Assembly (NCBI RefSeq): GCF_025515205.1
Contig: NZ_JAOPFX010000001.1
Location: 1,302,001-1,366,000, forward strand
DNA: 64,000 bases
Source: Microbacterium fluvii
GTDB taxonomy: Bacteria > Actinomycetota > Actinomycetes > Actinomycetales > Microbacteriaceae
Reading direction: 5' to 3'
Shown: positions 10,950 to 15,814 of the stretch, piece by piece
How positions within the stretch are numbered: the first letter of the stretch is position 1
Layout: the number at the start of each line of letters is the position of its first letter
Program-made: the position numbers and the translations under genes
The notes under the pieces: model-generated
Told to the model about the DNA's origin: nothing
Seen by the model: the letters and a program-made list of their open reading frames with translations, nothing else
Database searches by the model: none

Positions 10950-11177
10950 TCACATCGCCGGCACAGCGGGAGTGCCGCCCGAGCCGCGACGATGCAGATG
11001 CACGTGGGTGCGCACCCAGTGGGCCGTGCGCCGCAGCATCCGCCTGGCTGAGGACTCCGGCGCGACGAAAGTGGCGCGCCGCCCCTGCTGCTGACGGCGC
11101 AGCCTCGCCTGTTCCACCAGCTCCGCCGTCTGACGCTGAGCGTGGTCGTACGCCACGGCGCTCATGTAGCTGTCCAT
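10950..11177 (-). CDS. 75-aa basic protein, unknown function
   Basis: Small, strongly basic protein (RLRRQQQGRR, SSARRMLRRTAHWVRTHVHL) without a signal peptide or membrane segment. The N-terminal 30 residues look helical. It starts 7 nt after the stop of the 57-aa gene, with GAGG in that gap, so the two are co-transcribed. A strong terminator follows immediately. The pair is divergent from the BTAD/STAND regulator gene. I do not recognise a family; the basic patches could bind nucleic acid or phospholipid, which is speculation. Confidence 0.6.
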   Translation of the reverse strand: MDSYMSAVAYDHAQRQTAELVEQARLRRQQQGRRATFVAPESSARRMLRRTAHWVRTHVHLHRRGSGGTPAVPAM

Positions 11178-11184
11178 GTCCTCG

Positions 11185-11358
11185 TCACTCCGCTATGAAG
11201 GCGGCGCCGCTGTGCGCGCCCCCGCCCTGTCCGCCGACTCGTTCGTCGGCACCTGCCGAGCCGGCGTTCGCCACCGCCGCGACGATGCCGAGTCCCGCCG
11301 CCAGCAGCACCGCGGCGATGCCGGCCATGACTCGTGTGCGAATGGCCGTGGTGTCCAT
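11185..11358 (-). CDS. 57-aa predicted secreted or membrane-anchored peptide
   Basis: Starts at ATG 11358, with a good Shine-Dalgarno (GGGGGA) 6 nt upstream. Residues 1-32 resemble a signal peptide: a short charged start (MDTTAIRTR), a hydrophobic core of about 18 residues, and an Ala-Asn-Ala ending suited to signal peptidase I. Cleavage after residue 32 would release a 25-residue glycine-rich peptide ending GAAFIAE. Otherwise it is a single-pass membrane protein. Divergent from the large regulator, with 151 bp between. Too small for a family call. Confidence 0.6.
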   Translation of the reverse strand: MDTTAIRTRVMAGIAAVLLAAGLGIVAAVANAGSAGADERVGGQGGGAHSGAAFIAE

Positions 11359-11420
11359 GACCGTCCCCCGTTTCTGCCGCTGCCCGCTGCACCGGCTGAT
11401 TCCACGGTGCGGCGCCGGGG

Positions 11421-11487
11421 TACCCGCGGCGTACGCGGCGATACCCATCCGGTACCCGTCGCTCACGCGGGCTGTTGACGGGTACCC
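11421..11487. repeat. Helically phased TACCC repeats in regulator promoter
   Basis: TACCC occurs at 11421, 11442, 11453 and 11483, and a one-mismatch copy TACGC at 11432. Steps are 11, 10, 11 and 30 bp, so all lie on one face of the helix. The last repeat ends 10 nt upstream of the proposed -10 element at 11498. SARP/BTAD regulators are known to bind direct repeats spaced about 11 bp just upstream of the -10, which matches. Autoregulation by the BTAD protein is inferred. Confidence 0.6.
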
Positions 11488-11503
11488 ATGCCGGGCCCAC
11501 ACT
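11475..11503 (+). promoter_or_regulatory. Candidate promoter of the BTAD/STAND gene
   Basis: TTGACG at 11475-11480, 17-nt spacer, then CACACT at 11498-11503. The start codon ATG 11510 begins 6 nt after this -10, so the transcript would be leaderless; no Shine-Dalgarno is present. The -10 is weak (only A2 and T6 of TANNNT fit), as expected for a promoter that needs an activator. Confidence 0.5.
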
Positions 11504-11509
11504 GCTCGC

Positions 11510-14500
11510 ATGAGCGTGAGGGTGCTGGGGCCGCTCGACACCGGGGCGGCGCTGAGTCCGAGGGAGCGGACGATCCTGAGCGCGCTCATCGTGCGGCGCC
11601 CCGATGCGATCCCGCCCGGTGAGCTCGCCGACGCATGCTGGGGCGCCGACGCTCCCCCGACCTGGGCGCAGCAGGTCAAGAAGTCCATCTCGACGATCCG
11701 TCGGATGCTGGGGGCAGACAGTGTGCGCACGTTGGGCGCCGACTACGCCTTCGGCCTCGACCCCGACACCCTCGACGCGACGCGCTTCGAACGACTGGTC
11801 TCGGCGGCTCGCCAACAGCAGCTCCACGGCGAGCACGATCGCGCGATCGATGCCTACCAGCGCGCCCTCGCGCTCTGGCGCGGTCGGCCCTTTCCCGACA
11901 TCGCCGACTGGGAGCCGGGTGTCGTCGAGACGATGCGGCTGACCGAGATCCGCGACAGCGCCGCAGAAGAGCTGCTCGACGCACGACTGAACGCGGGCGA
12001 TGAGCGCGCGGTCATCCCCGACGCCGAGCGTCTGGTGCGCGAGAATCCCCTGCGTGAGGACCGGTGGGCGATTCTGGCGCTGGCCAACTATCGCGCCGGG
12101 CGCCAGGCCGAGGCGCTGGCGACGGTGCGCGCGGCCCGGGAACGTCTGCTCGACGAGCTGGGCATCGAGCCGGGCGCGCGGCTGCGCGATCTCGAAGTGG
12201 CCATGCTGCGCCAGGATCCGGGCCTGGTGCGCACGGTCGCGACGCCGAGCGCCTCATCGCAGTGCCCCTATCCGGGGCTGGCGGCATTCGGCCTCGACGA
12301 CGCCGAGGTGTTCTTCGGCCGCGAAACCGACGTCGAGGCGCTCGTCGATCGTCTGCGCCCCGGCGCTCTCGTCGCCGTCGTCGGCCCGTCCGGGTCGGGC
12401 AAGTCGTCTCTCGTGCTCGCCGGCGTGCTCCCCCGCCTCGTGGCGGGCGGCCGCGTCGCGCGGATCGTGCGGCCGGGGACCGGCGGCGCGGCGTCGTTCG
12501 CGGATGCGGTGGAGCGCGGCGGCGTGGTCGTCGTCGACCAGGCCGAGGAGCTGATGCAGGTCACCGGTGCCGAGATCGAGGACTTCTGCGCGCGTGCGGC
12601 CGAGTTCCTCACCGACGGTGGCACGATCGTGCTCACGCTGCGCTCCGACTTCCTCGACCGAGCCACCGCGCTCCCCCATGTCGGCGAGGCCGTCGCCCGC
12701 GGCGTCTACGCCCTGGCCCCGCTGTCGGCGGCGAGTCTGCGCGAGGCGATCGAGCAGCCGGCGCGGCACGCCCACCTGAGGTGGGAGCCCGGCCTGGTCG
12801 AACTCGTGCTGCGCGACGCCGCCGACAGGTCGACGACGCTGCCGCATGTGTCGCACGCGCTGCGAGAGACCTGGGCGCGCCGCGCCGGGGCGGTGCTCAC
12901 GGTCGAGGGGTATGAGGCGACGGGCGGCATCGCCGGTGCGATCGCGCAGTCGGCCGAGACGCTCTACCGGCAGCTCTCGCCTTCCGAGCGGACGCTGTGC
13001 AGAGCTCTCATGCTGCGGCTGGTCGCCCGCGATGCCGAGGGGCTCTCGCTCCGCCGCCGCACTCCCCTCCCGGCACTGCTGGCCGATGCCGATCGGCGCG
13101 GCGTGATCGAGAAGCTCGTCGCCGCGCGGCTCGTCGTCGTCGACGGCGAGGCGATCATGATCGCGCACGAGGCGATCGCCACCGCCTGGCCGCGCCTGGA
13201 CGGCTGGCTGGAGGAGGATGCTGCCGGCGCTCGGCTGATGGGGTCGCTCGAACTCGCGGCGCAGACCTGGGACGCCGATGGCCGCCCGGCCGACGCCCTG
13301 CTGCGCGGCGGCCGCCTGCAGGCGCTGCGTGAGTGGCGGGAGGACGCCCAGCCCGATCTCACCGAGGCCGAGGCCGCCCTACTGGATGCGTCGACGACGG
13401 CCGAGCGCGACGAACTCTCGGCGCTGCAGGAGCACACCCGCCAGCAGCGCCGGCAGAACCGGCGCCTGCGCTGGGCGCTGGGCGGCATCGGCGTGGTGCT
13501 CGTGGCGGCGGTCGCCGCGGGAGGGCTGGCGGCAGCATCCGCCCGGAATGCCACCGTGGAGGCCGTCACCTCACGGGCACTGAGCCTGCGCACGACCGAC
13601 CGCGAGCTGGCGGCCCTGATGGCCGTCGCCGCGCACGAGTCCTGGCCTGGCGACGAGCGCACGTCGACCGCCCTGGTCGGCTCGGTGACCGAAGCGGCGG
13701 GCTATATCGGCACCACCTACGTGCCCGATGCCCAGTGGCGGGTCGGCGTGTGGCCGATCCCCGGCACGACGCAGGCGGCCATCGTGCGCGATCAGGTCAA
13801 CGTGGAGATCATCGACTACGTGACGGGCGAGCGGATCCGCAGCCTCACGCCGGCGCTCGAGCGTCCTCCGGGGATCATCCGCCCCTGGGTGCGGGTGAGC
13901 GCCGACGGCAGCACGATGGCGATCGCTCAGCACTTCGCCGACCCGCAGACCGGTGCAGGCGAGGTCGAGCACGTGTCGTTCTTCGATCTGGAGTCCGGTC
14001 GGCAGGTCGGCTCGACGATCGTGACGACGACCGCCACCGACACGATCTCGCTCAGCCCGGACGGCGCCCATCTCACCTGGGCCGCGACCGGAACGCTCGT
14101 GGTCGTAGACCGCGACACCGGTGAGGTGCGCACCGCCGAGGTCGAGACGACTCCGCCGGAGGCGATGTCGTGGTCGGCGGCGTCGGCGTATGGTTCAGAC
14201 GGCTCGCTGCGCGTGGCCACCGTCACGGGGCGCCTGCTCGAGATCGACCCCGAGACACTCGCGGTGCGGGGCAGCGTCGCGATCCCGCCGCGACGCATGA
14301 ACAACGCCATCCTCATCGCCGACGACGGCACCGTGTTCGGCATCGGGATCGAGGGGGTCGCCGTGATCGACTCGGCCGGTGTGCAGGTGTGGACGCGGGG
14401 CTTCGAACGCACCTGGGAGTGCTCCCGTCCCCTCGTGAGCTCGACCACCGAGATCGCCGGGTGCGGCGACGAGCGCGGCAGCGTGCAGCTGTGGAACCTG

Positions 14501-15712
14501 CGCACCGGGATGCGCATCGCCGAGCCGTTCGACTATCAGGGTGGAGGCTCCGGCGACCTGGCGCTCGTGGACGGCGATCGGGAGCTGCTGCTGCTCAGTG
14601 CGATCCTTCCCCGCATCGGGCGGCTGCGCGTCGACGGCTCGGGCGCAGGCGCCGAGATCGTCGCGCGCGGTCAGACGACGGCGGCGGGCTTCAGCCCCGA
14701 CGGCACCCGCATCATCGTGCGGGGAGAGGTGGTCGAAGGCGCAGAGACACCGCTGAGCGTGTGGGACGTCGAATCGGACGAGGCCGTGTTCCGCATCCCC
14801 GACGACGTCGTGGACGACTACGACGGCTACCTCGCCTCCGATCCGCGCTGGCTGACCGATGACCTGCTGGGCATCTGGCGCATCGACACCGACGACGACG
14901 GCACCGAGACGCCGCACATGACCGTGCTCGACATCTCGACCGGGCGCTTCGTCGCCACCGAGCTTCCCGACGACACCTGGGACGTGTATCCCTCGCCCGA
15001 TCGCGACCGCTTCTACGTGACGCAGGCCGTGCCCGACGAGAACTCGTTCCCGCAGTTCGAACCGTGGGTGAGCGTGTTCGACCCGTCGACGCTGACGCTG
15101 CTGCCGCAGCGCTTCAACGCAGCCGACTACCTGTATTCGGTCGCCTCGTCGACCGACGGCTCGCAGGTGTTCGTGACCCGCTGGATCAACGACTCGCTCG
15201 GGTTCCGCACATCGGTCTATGACGGCGCCACCGGCGAGGCGACCGGAGAGGGCCTCGAGCGCATGTTCAGCGTGGCCTGGGCCGGCGGAGACACCGTCAT
15301 CGGCGCGGGCGACACCGGGCTGTACGAGTATTCGTCTCGCACGCTCGAACGCATCGGCACGCTCCCCGCGCAGAAGTCGCGGGTCTCGAAAGTGTCATTG
15401 ACCGGCGATCTCCAGACGCTCATGTCGGCGTCGACCGGCGATGACGGCGTGTCGCTGATCGACCTGGCCACCCGCCGCAGGCTCGGCGACGCGATGTTCG
15501 CCGGCGACGACGGGATCGCCGACGTCGCGCGTGACGGTTCCGCGTTCGTGATTTCTGTGCCGCAGGGCGTGGCGCTCTGGAGCCTGGATCCGGACGCCCA
15601 GTCCGACGCGCTCTGCCGCATGGCCGGCCGCGAACCCACGGCCGACGAATGGGCGAACTACTTCAGCGAGCTGGGCGCCCAGCATCCGCTCTGCGCAGAC
15701 GTGCTCGGATAG
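11510..15712 (+). CDS. BTAD-type regulator fused to STAND NTPase, TM helix and beta-propeller
   Basis: 1400 residues. Residues 1-90: OmpR-like winged helix (MSVRVLGPLDTG, PPGELADACWGADAPPT, RTLGADYAFGLD). About 95-240: bacterial transcriptional activation domain, TPR-like (FERLVSAARQQQ, AIDAYQRALALWRG, LLDELGIEPGARLRDLE). About 255-600: STAND-type NTPase, introduced by PYPGLAAFGLDDAEVFFGRE; Walker A GPSGSGKS at 292-299, Walker B VVVVDQAEEL with D343, then a helical arm. About 655-677: one transmembrane helix (ALGGIGVVLVAAVAAGGLAA). About 690-1400: WD40-like beta-propeller blades (AAGFSPDGTRIIV, SADGSTMAIA, LSPDGAHLTW). Topology puts DNA-binding and NTPase parts inside and the propeller outside, so it could sense an external signal and act directly on DNA. 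The frame opens at 11195, but ATG 11510 starts the HTH domain and fits the leaderless promoter. Confidence 0.88.
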   Translation: MSVRVLGPLDTGAALSPRERTILSALIVRRPDAIPPGELADACWGADAPPTWAQQVKKSISTIRRMLGADSVRTLGADYAFGLDPDTLDATRFERLVSAARQQQLHGEHDRAIDAYQRALALWRGRPFPDIADWEPGVVETMRLTEIRDSAAEELLDARLNAGDERAVIPDAERLVRENPLREDRWAILALANYRAGRQAEALATVRAARERLLDELGIEPGARLRDLEVAMLRQDPGLVRTVATPSASSQCPYPGLAAFGLDDAEVFFGRETDVEALVDRLRPGALVAVVGPSGSGKSSLVLAGVLPRLVAGGRVARIVRPGTGGAASFADAVERGGVVVVDQAEELMQVTGAEIEDFCARAAEFLTDGGTIVLTLRSDFLDRATALPHVGEAVARGVYALAPLSAASLREAIEQPARHAHLRWEPGLVELVLRDAADRSTTLPHVSHALRETWARRAGAVLTVEGYEATGGIAGAIAQSAETLYRQLSPSERTLCRALMLRLVARDAEGLSLRRRTPLPALLADADRRGVIEKLVAARLVVVDGEAIMIAHEAIATAWPRLDGWLEEDAAGARLMGSLELAAQTWDADGRPADALLRGGRLQALREWREDAQPDLTEAEAALLDASTTAERDELSALQEHTRQQRRQNRRLRWALGGIGVVLVAAVAAGGLAAASARNATVEAVTSRALSLRTTDRELAALMAVAAHESWPGDERTSTALVGSVTEAAGYIGTTYVPDAQWRVGVWPIPGTTQAAIVRDQVNVEIIDYVTGERIRSLTPALERPPGIIRPWVRVSADGSTMAIAQHFADPQTGAGEVEHVSFFDLESGRQVGSTIVTTTATDTISLSPDGAHLTWAATGTLVVVDRDTGEVRTAEVETTPPEAMSWSAASAYGSDGSLRVATVTGRLLEIDPETLAVRGSVAIPPRRMNNAILIADDGTVFGIGIEGVAVIDSAGVQVWTRGFERTWECSRPLVSSTTEIAGCGDERGSVQLWNLRTGMRIAEPFDYQGGGSGDLALVDGDRELLLLSAILPRIGRLRVDGSGAGAEIVARGQTTAAGFSPDGTRIIVRGEVVEGAETPLSVWDVESDEAVFRIPDDVVDDYDGYLASDPRWLTDDLLGIWRIDTDDDGTETPHMTVLDISTGRFVATELPDDTWDVYPSPDRDRFYVTQAVPDENSFPQFEPWVSVFDPSTLTLLPQRFNAADYLYSVASSTDGSQVFVTRWINDSLGFRTSVYDGATGEATGEGLERMFSVAWAGGDTVIGAGDTGLYEYSSRTLERIGTLPAQKSRVSKVSLTGDLQTLMSASTGDDGVSLIDLATRRRLGDAMFAGDDGIADVARDGSAFVISVPQGVALWSLDPDAQSDALCRMAGREPTADEWANYFSELGAQHPLCADVLG

Positions 15713-15725
15713 CGCGGATGCCGGA

Positions 15726-15754
15726 AGCCCGGCCCCCTTGTAAGGGGCCGGGCT
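15726..15754 (+). terminator. Rho-independent-like terminator after the regulator gene
   Basis: 11-bp perfect stem AGCCCGGCCCC / GGGGCCGGGCT with a 7-nt loop, 13 nt after the stop codon. It also lies past the 3' end of ilvC from the other strand, so it can serve both convergent units. Confidence 0.8.
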
Positions 15755-15814
15755 CCGTGTGGCTCTGAATCAAAGCCGGCTCGGCGGGTCAGCCGAGGCC
15801 TGGGTCACCGAGGG

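Follow-up and report, generated by a model that had tools for sequence, protein, structure and literature searches.

Organization of the locus

The window analysed here, a stretch of 64,000 nucleotides (nt) from the genome of Microbacterium fluvii (NZ_JAOPFX010000001.1, positions 1,302,001 to 1,366,000, forward strand), contains a gene for a 1400-residue regulator in which a DNA-binding head of the SARP type, a STAND nucleoside triphosphatase (NTPase), one membrane helix and a C-terminal half resembling WD40 propellers follow one another in a single chain. Three direct repeats separate its promoter from a divergent open reading frame (ORF) for a small, exported-looking peptide, and we lean towards the view that the protein is a transmembrane one-component SARP activator of that divergent gene, with binding, activation, ligand and nucleotide switch all predicted. 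The regulator and its parts lie at the following positions in the window.

11510-15712, plus strand: regulator gene, 1400 residues, winged helix-BTAD-nSTAND1-membrane helix-propellers (ORF, Pfam, hydropathy, AlphaFold2 models)
11546-11719, plus strand: winged helix, residues 13-70 (Trans_reg_C below cut-off, AfsR alignment, model)
11771-12202, plus strand: BTAD domain, residues 88-231 (PF03704, E 2.3e-32)
12266-13291, plus strand: nSTAND1 NTPase, residues 253-594, with Walker A 292-299 and Asp343 (PF20703, E 1.3e-93)
13364-13537, plus strand: long predicted helix, residues 619-675, running into the hydrophobic segment 656-676 (hydropathy, relatives, model)
13547-15709, plus strand: predicted extracytoplasmic half with WD40-type propellers, residues 680-1400, with cysteines 971, 985, 1369 and 1395 (model, fold matches, cysteines)

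The open frame reaches further upstream (ATG 11195 to 15712); the ATG at 11510 is preferred because the alignments of relatives begin at residue 1 and because the -10 element of a recurrent promoter ends 6 nt before it, and the start at 11195 was set aside. The domain order given in a preliminary description of this DNA is borne out by Pfam, hydropathy and fold models, and the Walker A motif and aspartate named there are invariant positions across 28 sequences. Neither NCBIfam nor PADLOC supplied a better name, PADLOC giving weak P-loop matches only, and the Pfam scan of the regulator contained no effector domain. Comparisons below use a close-relative set of 27 proteins and a further set of 38 nSTAND1 proteins (L102-L139, with L103 in both), drawn from the best 80 of 216 confirmed loci; L and G numbers denote loci and genomes.

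A SARP-type head on a STAND NTPase

The winged helix gave a Trans_reg_C match of 22.8 bits against a cut-off of 26.2 (residues 13-70, Pfam), and phmmer aligned residues 10-239 or 10-279 with AfsR, the large SARP of Streptomyces coelicolor. In an AlphaFold2 model of residues 1-720 (28 sequences, mean predicted local distance difference test [pLDDT] score 87.4), the head matches AfsR in 8k60 over 247 aligned columns with a target-normalised template modelling score (TM-score) of 0.86 and 34% identity, and the helix at residues 52-67 is taken as the recognition helix. By Pfam, phmmer and fold, a winged helix followed by a BTAD domain makes this a SARP-type head; likewise the nSTAND1 match, above its Pfam cut-off and with the Walker A motif and aspartate in place, identifies a STAND NTPase, for which nucleotide switching is predicted. 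The SARP-like regulator of the preliminary description stands as far as an AfsR-like head and a repeat operator recurring upstream of relatives are concerned, DNA binding being a prediction.

The membrane helix and the predicted outer half

One membrane helix had been placed near residues 655-677, and a single clear hydrophobic helix is present at 656-676 (mean Kyte-Doolittle hydropathy about 2.2), with RRQNRRLR standing just ahead of it. An equivalent helix is found in 27/27 close relatives and 38/38 further nSTAND1 proteins. Model confidence drops where the stalk runs into the membrane helix, to 73 in block 651-660 and 63 in block 661-670. The protein has a DNA-binding domain and a membrane helix in one chain, as transmembrane transcription regulators do; for such regulators a sensor outside the membrane is also expected, and here it is predicted.

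The location of the C-terminal half outside the membrane, which the preliminary description had derived from topology, is supported by charge bias and by the cysteine pattern. In every protein of both sets (27/27 and 38/38), the net charge of the 15 residues before the helix exceeds that of the 15 residues after it. The outer cysteine count is even in 24 of 26 close relatives (odd in L095 and L096; L097, whose frame stops early and which has zero outer cysteines, was left out and would give 25 of 27), compared with an even inner count in 17 of 27. In the further set the outer count is even in 33 of 36 (odd in L129, L131 and L136; L130, with zero, was scored as even, and L113 and L115 were omitted as cut or short) and the inner count in 13 of 38, the inner stretch there taking in upstream frame that is unproven. 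Paired outer cysteines would fit disulfides, and hence an outside C-terminal half. All four cysteines of the window protein are invariant in a 7-sequence alignment; the larger alignment of 27 sequences keeps only 1369 and 1395 invariant, a pair at the place of 971 and 985 being present in 22 of 26 relatives as judged by cysteine positions. A shorter relative of 1035 residues (L046, 8071-11175) has a smaller outer half and still carries C-terminal cysteines, at 1008 and 1033.

No WD40 family scored above cut-off in the Pfam scan of the regulator. A model of residues 680-1400 (27 sequences, mean pLDDT 88.5) consists of beta structure throughout, between three helices at the beginning and short ones at the end, and its best PDB matches are ribosome-assembly and ciliary-type WD40 proteins and full-length Apaf-1 (3sfz, 3shf), which we take to be double propellers; the query TM-scores are just 0.29-0.42, and it is the fold class on which we rely. 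The C-terminal half probably consists of two WD40-type propellers, in agreement with the large WD40-like half described earlier as to fold, and with two propellers likelier than the one proposed.

Repeats and promoters between the divergent genes

The region upstream of the regulator contains the following features.

11475-11503, plus strand: regulator promoter, TTGACG at 11475-11480 and CACACT at 11498-11503, with the ATG 6 nt beyond (recurrence upstream of relatives)
11419-11457, plus strand: operator, GGTACCC at 11419, GATACCC at 11440 and GGTACCC at 11451, 21 and 11 bp apart (repeat scoring of upstream regions)
11404-11409, minus strand: -10-like element of the predicted divergent promoter, CACCGT, with 9 nt between it and the closest repeat (offset analysis)
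11185-11358, minus strand: divergent ORF of 57 residues, the predicted target, with a hydrophobic stretch that suggests a signal or membrane peptide (hydrophobicity, position)
10950-11177, minus strand: small basic ORF of 75 residues after the 57-residue ORF, possibly on the same transcript (ORF calls)

Upstream of relatives, a TTGAC is followed after 17-18 nt by a CACACT-like element, and the start codon lies 35 nt after TTGAC at each of the seven sites listed; since this places the start codon 6 nt after the -10 element, the regulator transcript is probably leaderless. Preceding this promoter are three direct repeats of the form GRTAYNC, 21-22 bp and then 11 bp apart. When the upstream regions of 50 regulator genes, together with two extra sites, were scored for this operator on a scale with a maximum of 15, the triad reached 14-15 in 29 of the 50 regions, equal to 28 distinct genes (L076 and L089 being the same), and the full triad is present in Microbacterium, Agromyces, Cellulomonas, Demequina and Nocardioidaceae, among other clades. 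In published SARP targets the repeats are spaced by 11 or 22 bp, and 8 bp separate the -10 element from the 3' repeat (excerpts of PMC10936776); the direct repeats found here have this AfsR-type spacing from one another, at 21 and 11 bp in the window and, in relatives, at 22 or 21 and then 11 bp. The regulator promoter contains a fourth GGTACCC between its -35 and -10 elements (11481-11487), which has a GGTATCG as counterpart at about the same place in L041a and could allow self-repression.

Read away from the regulator, a -10-like hexamer stands 9 nt past the first repeat, with its A and T both in place in 23 of 31 triad sites (the 29 regulator upstream regions and the two extra sites). After dereplication 15 of 22 sites fit this offset, compared with 3 for the best other offset and a mean of 0.6 over 50 offsets, this one included; on either count the element has this position in at least two thirds of sites. 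By eye, no -35 element was seen on the divergent side.

What would such a promoter drive? A divergent ORF of at least 40 residues with an N-terminal hydrophobic stretch, starting 95-230 nt from the regulator, is present in 24 of 27 loci (the window and the loci of named organisms scoring at least 13, with L076 out as a duplicate). Controls at ten other distances on the divergent strand gave 0-7 of 22-27, and those at eleven arbitrary distances on the regulator strand 0-1. The shortest divergent ORF has 52 residues and the longest 418; in 19 of the 24 the length is at most 148, and the rest have 173, 257, 262, 277 and 418 residues. By eye their products vary by genus, being lipoprotein-like (MNTTQN) in Agromyces, peptides of 52-57 residues in Microbacterium, and others again in Demequina and Nocardioides. 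L041b, L043 and L046 also have, by eye, an exported-looking divergent ORF, that of L046 with a strong hydrophobic segment. By hydrophobicity, the divergent product looks exported. No convincing homologue of the 57-residue peptide was found elsewhere in 118 genomes (best other E 6.9e-4). Homology between the 75-residue ORF and a 67-residue protein of L040 was not demonstrated; the latter had itself been considered as a regulator-linked gene and was rejected, since its homologues (1.9e-16, 1.5e-15 and 1.1e-11) lie in G068, G049 and G011, none of which has a full-length regulator among the matches listed.

Possible recognition of the boxes

In AfsR, Arg92 and Thr88 make specific base contacts (excerpts of PMC10936776), and HMMER sets window residues V56-R65 opposite AfsR V86-K95, in the numbering fixed by the residues named in those excerpts. 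Among 23 dereplicated sequences, residue 58, opposite AfsR Thr88, ranks first of 110 columns by mutual information with the box divided by joint entropy (0.62). Thr at this position goes with GGTACT, Asn with GATATCC, Ile or Gly with GGTATC or GTTATCA, Lys (the window) with GGTACCC, and Ala with GGTATG, with the exception of L094 (GGTATCC). Within Agromyces, L088 combines Thr with GGTACTC, and L072, L076 and L078 combine Ala with GGTATGG; the change of residue and box in L088 may be independent. If the AfsR contacts hold, residue 62 would meet the conserved T and residue 58 the variable base with the box read towards the regulator.

Distribution and neighbouring genes

The host genome (3.33 Mb, five contigs) has one BTAD match and one nSTAND1 match above cut-off. 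Among the matches listed, a full-length regulator occurs in 4 of 70 other same-genus genomes (G001-G070), namely G065, G028, G062 and G045, the last with two copies. The two copies of G045 lie about 4 kb apart (L041, 3737-7927 and 12061-16287), each with its own operator, and their box sequences differ.

The regulator is flanked by serA on one side and by ilvC, ilvN, ilvB and ilvD on the other (named by eye). In L146 (G068), ilvC, an ORF of the 67-residue type and a CutC-like gene are consecutive, without the regulator, which therefore looks like an accessory gene at a fixed site. Between the regulator and ilvC, a GC-rich inverted repeat seen by eye (15712-15780) looks like a terminator common to the two convergent genes.

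A proposed transmembrane activator and its rivals

As we picture it, the head and the nSTAND1 NTPase would lie in the cytosol, a single helix continuous with a helical stalk would cross the membrane, and the WD40-type propellers, probably two and probably disulfide-bonded, would lie outside. By binding the three direct repeats in the intergenic region, the head would activate the divergent promoter, in which a -10 element is present and no -35 is visible; the target would be the exported-looking 57-residue peptide in the window and in relatives mostly a lipoprotein, a secreted protein or a membrane-anchored protein. A ligand outside the cell would alter the propellers, the change would pass through the stalk, and nucleotide-dependent oligomerisation, thereby permitted, would line up the SARP heads along the repeats. 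A further step, in which the divergent exported protein is itself what the outer propellers sense, would make regulator, operator and exported peptide a closed feedback or quorum circuit running through the outside of the cell, with a membrane-split, Apaf-1-like STAND machine at its core; we regard this extension as unlikely.

Several observations weigh against activation of the divergent gene. The triad score is below 14 in 21 of the 50 upstream regions (L046, L077, L080, L082, L083, L084, L087, L090, L093, L100, L101, L102 and L104-L112), including all seven Lentzea loci of the set; partial repeats are visible by eye in L046, L077, L082, L090 and L100. The -10-like element fails in 8 of the 31 triad sites, comprising all five Demequina sites that carry the triad (L092, L094, L095, L096 and L099) and three of Nocardioidaceae (L097, L098 and L103), and the distance from heptamer to hexamer is counted as 9 nt, compared with the published 8. 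An exported-looking divergent ORF is missing from three of the 27 loci (L069, L070 and L071) and from L041a. In five genomes a two-box pattern occurs at 11 sites, compared with 7 for the reversed pattern (1 compared with 3 in the window genome), so two boxes alone are not significant. Of the 11 sites, five belong to regulator promoters and four have, by eye, no first repeat at the required distance; the remaining two (G028 and G065), which speak for activation of a divergent gene, are completed by the third repeat, carry the -10-like element at an unchanged offset and precede lipoprotein-like ORFs that lie beyond serA. The regulator promoter of G062 escapes the pattern through a difference in the final base of each of its two boxes. 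A second target was not found in the window genome, where there is one exact two-box site only and where a search with one mismatch gave four further matches (at three places), each lacking a first repeat at 21 or 22 bp on its upstream side; the total of 85 is mildly above the 57 of the reversed control, the two-mismatch matches not having been inspected singly, and weak further sites may exist.

Box recognition adds to this side of the balance. The lead of residue 58 is narrow (0.62 compared with 0.59 for residue 91), and by raw mutual information it scores 2.09, with columns 66, 77, 82, 91 and 106 higher, so that the association, from which shared ancestry was not removed, is a hint only. 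Opposite Arg92 the window protein has Thr62, and other sequences have Arg, Lys, Gln or His, so the AfsR contacts may not carry over. The -10 element points against the polarity that those contacts would imply, and this conflict weakens the activation claim more than anything else; since they are nearly palindromic, the window boxes could be read either way.

Two side observations concern the repeats themselves. In the Lentzea loci L106-L112 the place of the triad is taken, as seen by eye, by CGTAT repeats in 11-bp steps close to where the regulator starts. Downstream of the extra triads (L053 and L058, about position 1500), the short lipoprotein-like ORFs share similar-looking C-terminal ends.

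Might the regulator mainly control its own promoter, the divergent gene being driven independently? Relative to the regulator's own start, repeats 2 and 3 lie near -60, where a class I activator would sit. From repeat 3 to the -35 element of that promoter the distance is mostly 23 or 24 nt, as in nearly all Microbacterium, Agromyces and Demequina sites, or 13 nt, as in Cellulomonas, Nocardioidaceae and L043 (loci L043, L085, L097, L098 and L103; in L092 the script picked an earlier TTGAC, giving 11 nt). The AfsR contact spacing suits a box direction towards the regulator, the Demequina and Nocardioidaceae sites keep the repeats yet have no divergent -10, and the fourth repeat sits inside the regulator's promoter. 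We nevertheless consider this somewhat unlikely, because the regulator's own promoter has good -35 and -10 hexamers and so needs no activator, whereas the divergent promoter has a -10 only; moreover, the two extra triads come with a divergent -10, the part inspected on their opposite side being free of TTGAC, and the exported-looking divergent ORF is present in 24 of 27 loci. It is very unlikely, in our estimate, that the helix merely anchors a cytosolic protein whose propellers form an inside lid on the NTPase in the manner of Apaf-1, which detects cytochrome c via its WD40 repeats (excerpts of PMC7159879) and is among the fold matches of the C-terminal half: the charge bias is uniform in both sets, and outer cysteines are even in 24/26 and 33/36 proteins, compared with 17/27 and 13/38 for inner ones. 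More improbable still is an nSTAND1 conflict protein, acting against invaders, whose BTAD head recruits or activates effectors and regulates no neighbouring gene. Its sporadic occurrence (4 of 70 other same-genus genomes) would suit such a role, and nSTAND1 is named in counter-invader systems (excerpts of PMC8195603), but Pfam detected no effector domain, PADLOC gave those weak P-loop matches only, and a recurrent operator with an exported-looking divergent ORF suits regulation better. A transmembrane activator of the divergent gene is the reading that we retain.

Comparison with known systems

AfsR has a SARP head with a nucleotide-binding domain after it and repeats 11 or 22 bp apart, as here, but continues into NOD and TPR domains (excerpts of PMC10936776), whereas the window protein has nSTAND1, a membrane helix and propellers; the terms 'transmembrane' and 'WD40' are absent from those excerpts. 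PimR, a SARP-LAL, similarly carries its SARP head on a large ATP-binding protein and has a target of three repeats with 4-nt spacers, but differs in its LAL-type C-terminal half; in the SARP review concerned (PMC10972967), 'transmembrane', 'extracellular' and 'WD40' do not occur, and 'membrane' occurs once, in 'cytomembrane', for a histidine kinase. The combination of nSTAND1, membrane helix and WD40-type propellers is shared with L047, L048, L049 and L050, unlike which the regulator has a BTAD domain (none among the matches listed for these four); L048 and L050 have an N-terminal HTH_31 (below cut-off in L050) and L047 a guanylate cyclase with AAA_16. The membrane-tethered layout of the preliminary description was thus found, but it is not peculiar to this gene.

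In ToxR and CadC, head, membrane helix and outer part form one chain, as predicted for the window protein, but unlike in the latter no NTPase stands between head and membrane. Transmembrane regulators of the ToxR/CadC type would resemble it in this layout and in working with no kinase (excerpts of PMC10269533); they are termed diverse and prevalent in the same excerpts, and the paper does not mention BTAD, WD40 or NTPase. For CadC a further likeness may lie in the intramolecular disulfide named in the title of PMC3096576. Apaf-1 serves as a mechanism comparison only, CARD being absent among the regulator's Pfam matches. It has a CARD effector and no membrane helix between NTPase and propellers. 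The likeness lies in a STAND NTPase with a C-terminal WD40-type part, a sensor in Apaf-1 (excerpts of PMC7159879), and in the matches to 3sfz and 3shf.

No description of the architecture was found in the open-access literature, a statement that covers literature and not database annotation. No paper was found there on nSTAND1 and BTAD together or on SARP, WD40 and Streptomyces, and no membrane-bound SARP in the titles or abstract openings among the matches listed. In the excerpts of PMC1262709, BTAD is mentioned for AfsR-like and EmbR proteins only; the excerpts of PMC2447327 mention neither BTAD nor WD40, and the prokaryotic WD40 survey PMC5587647 does not mention BTAD. What is new here is the predicted target gene with its operator, the protein layout not being unique.

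Significance

Signal reception by large SARPs is poorly understood, as we summarize the reviews. The regulator of the window has a SARP head, would work as a transmembrane transcription regulator and has as its predicted target a divergent gene for an exported-looking product. A STAND switch that connects a SARP across the membrane with an outer propeller would, if true, give a kinase-free route from the outside of the cell to a promoter. The prediction is compact, with one clear operator in the genome and two divergent promoters, and the differing boxes and recognition helices of the relatives are material for learning how SARPs read DNA.

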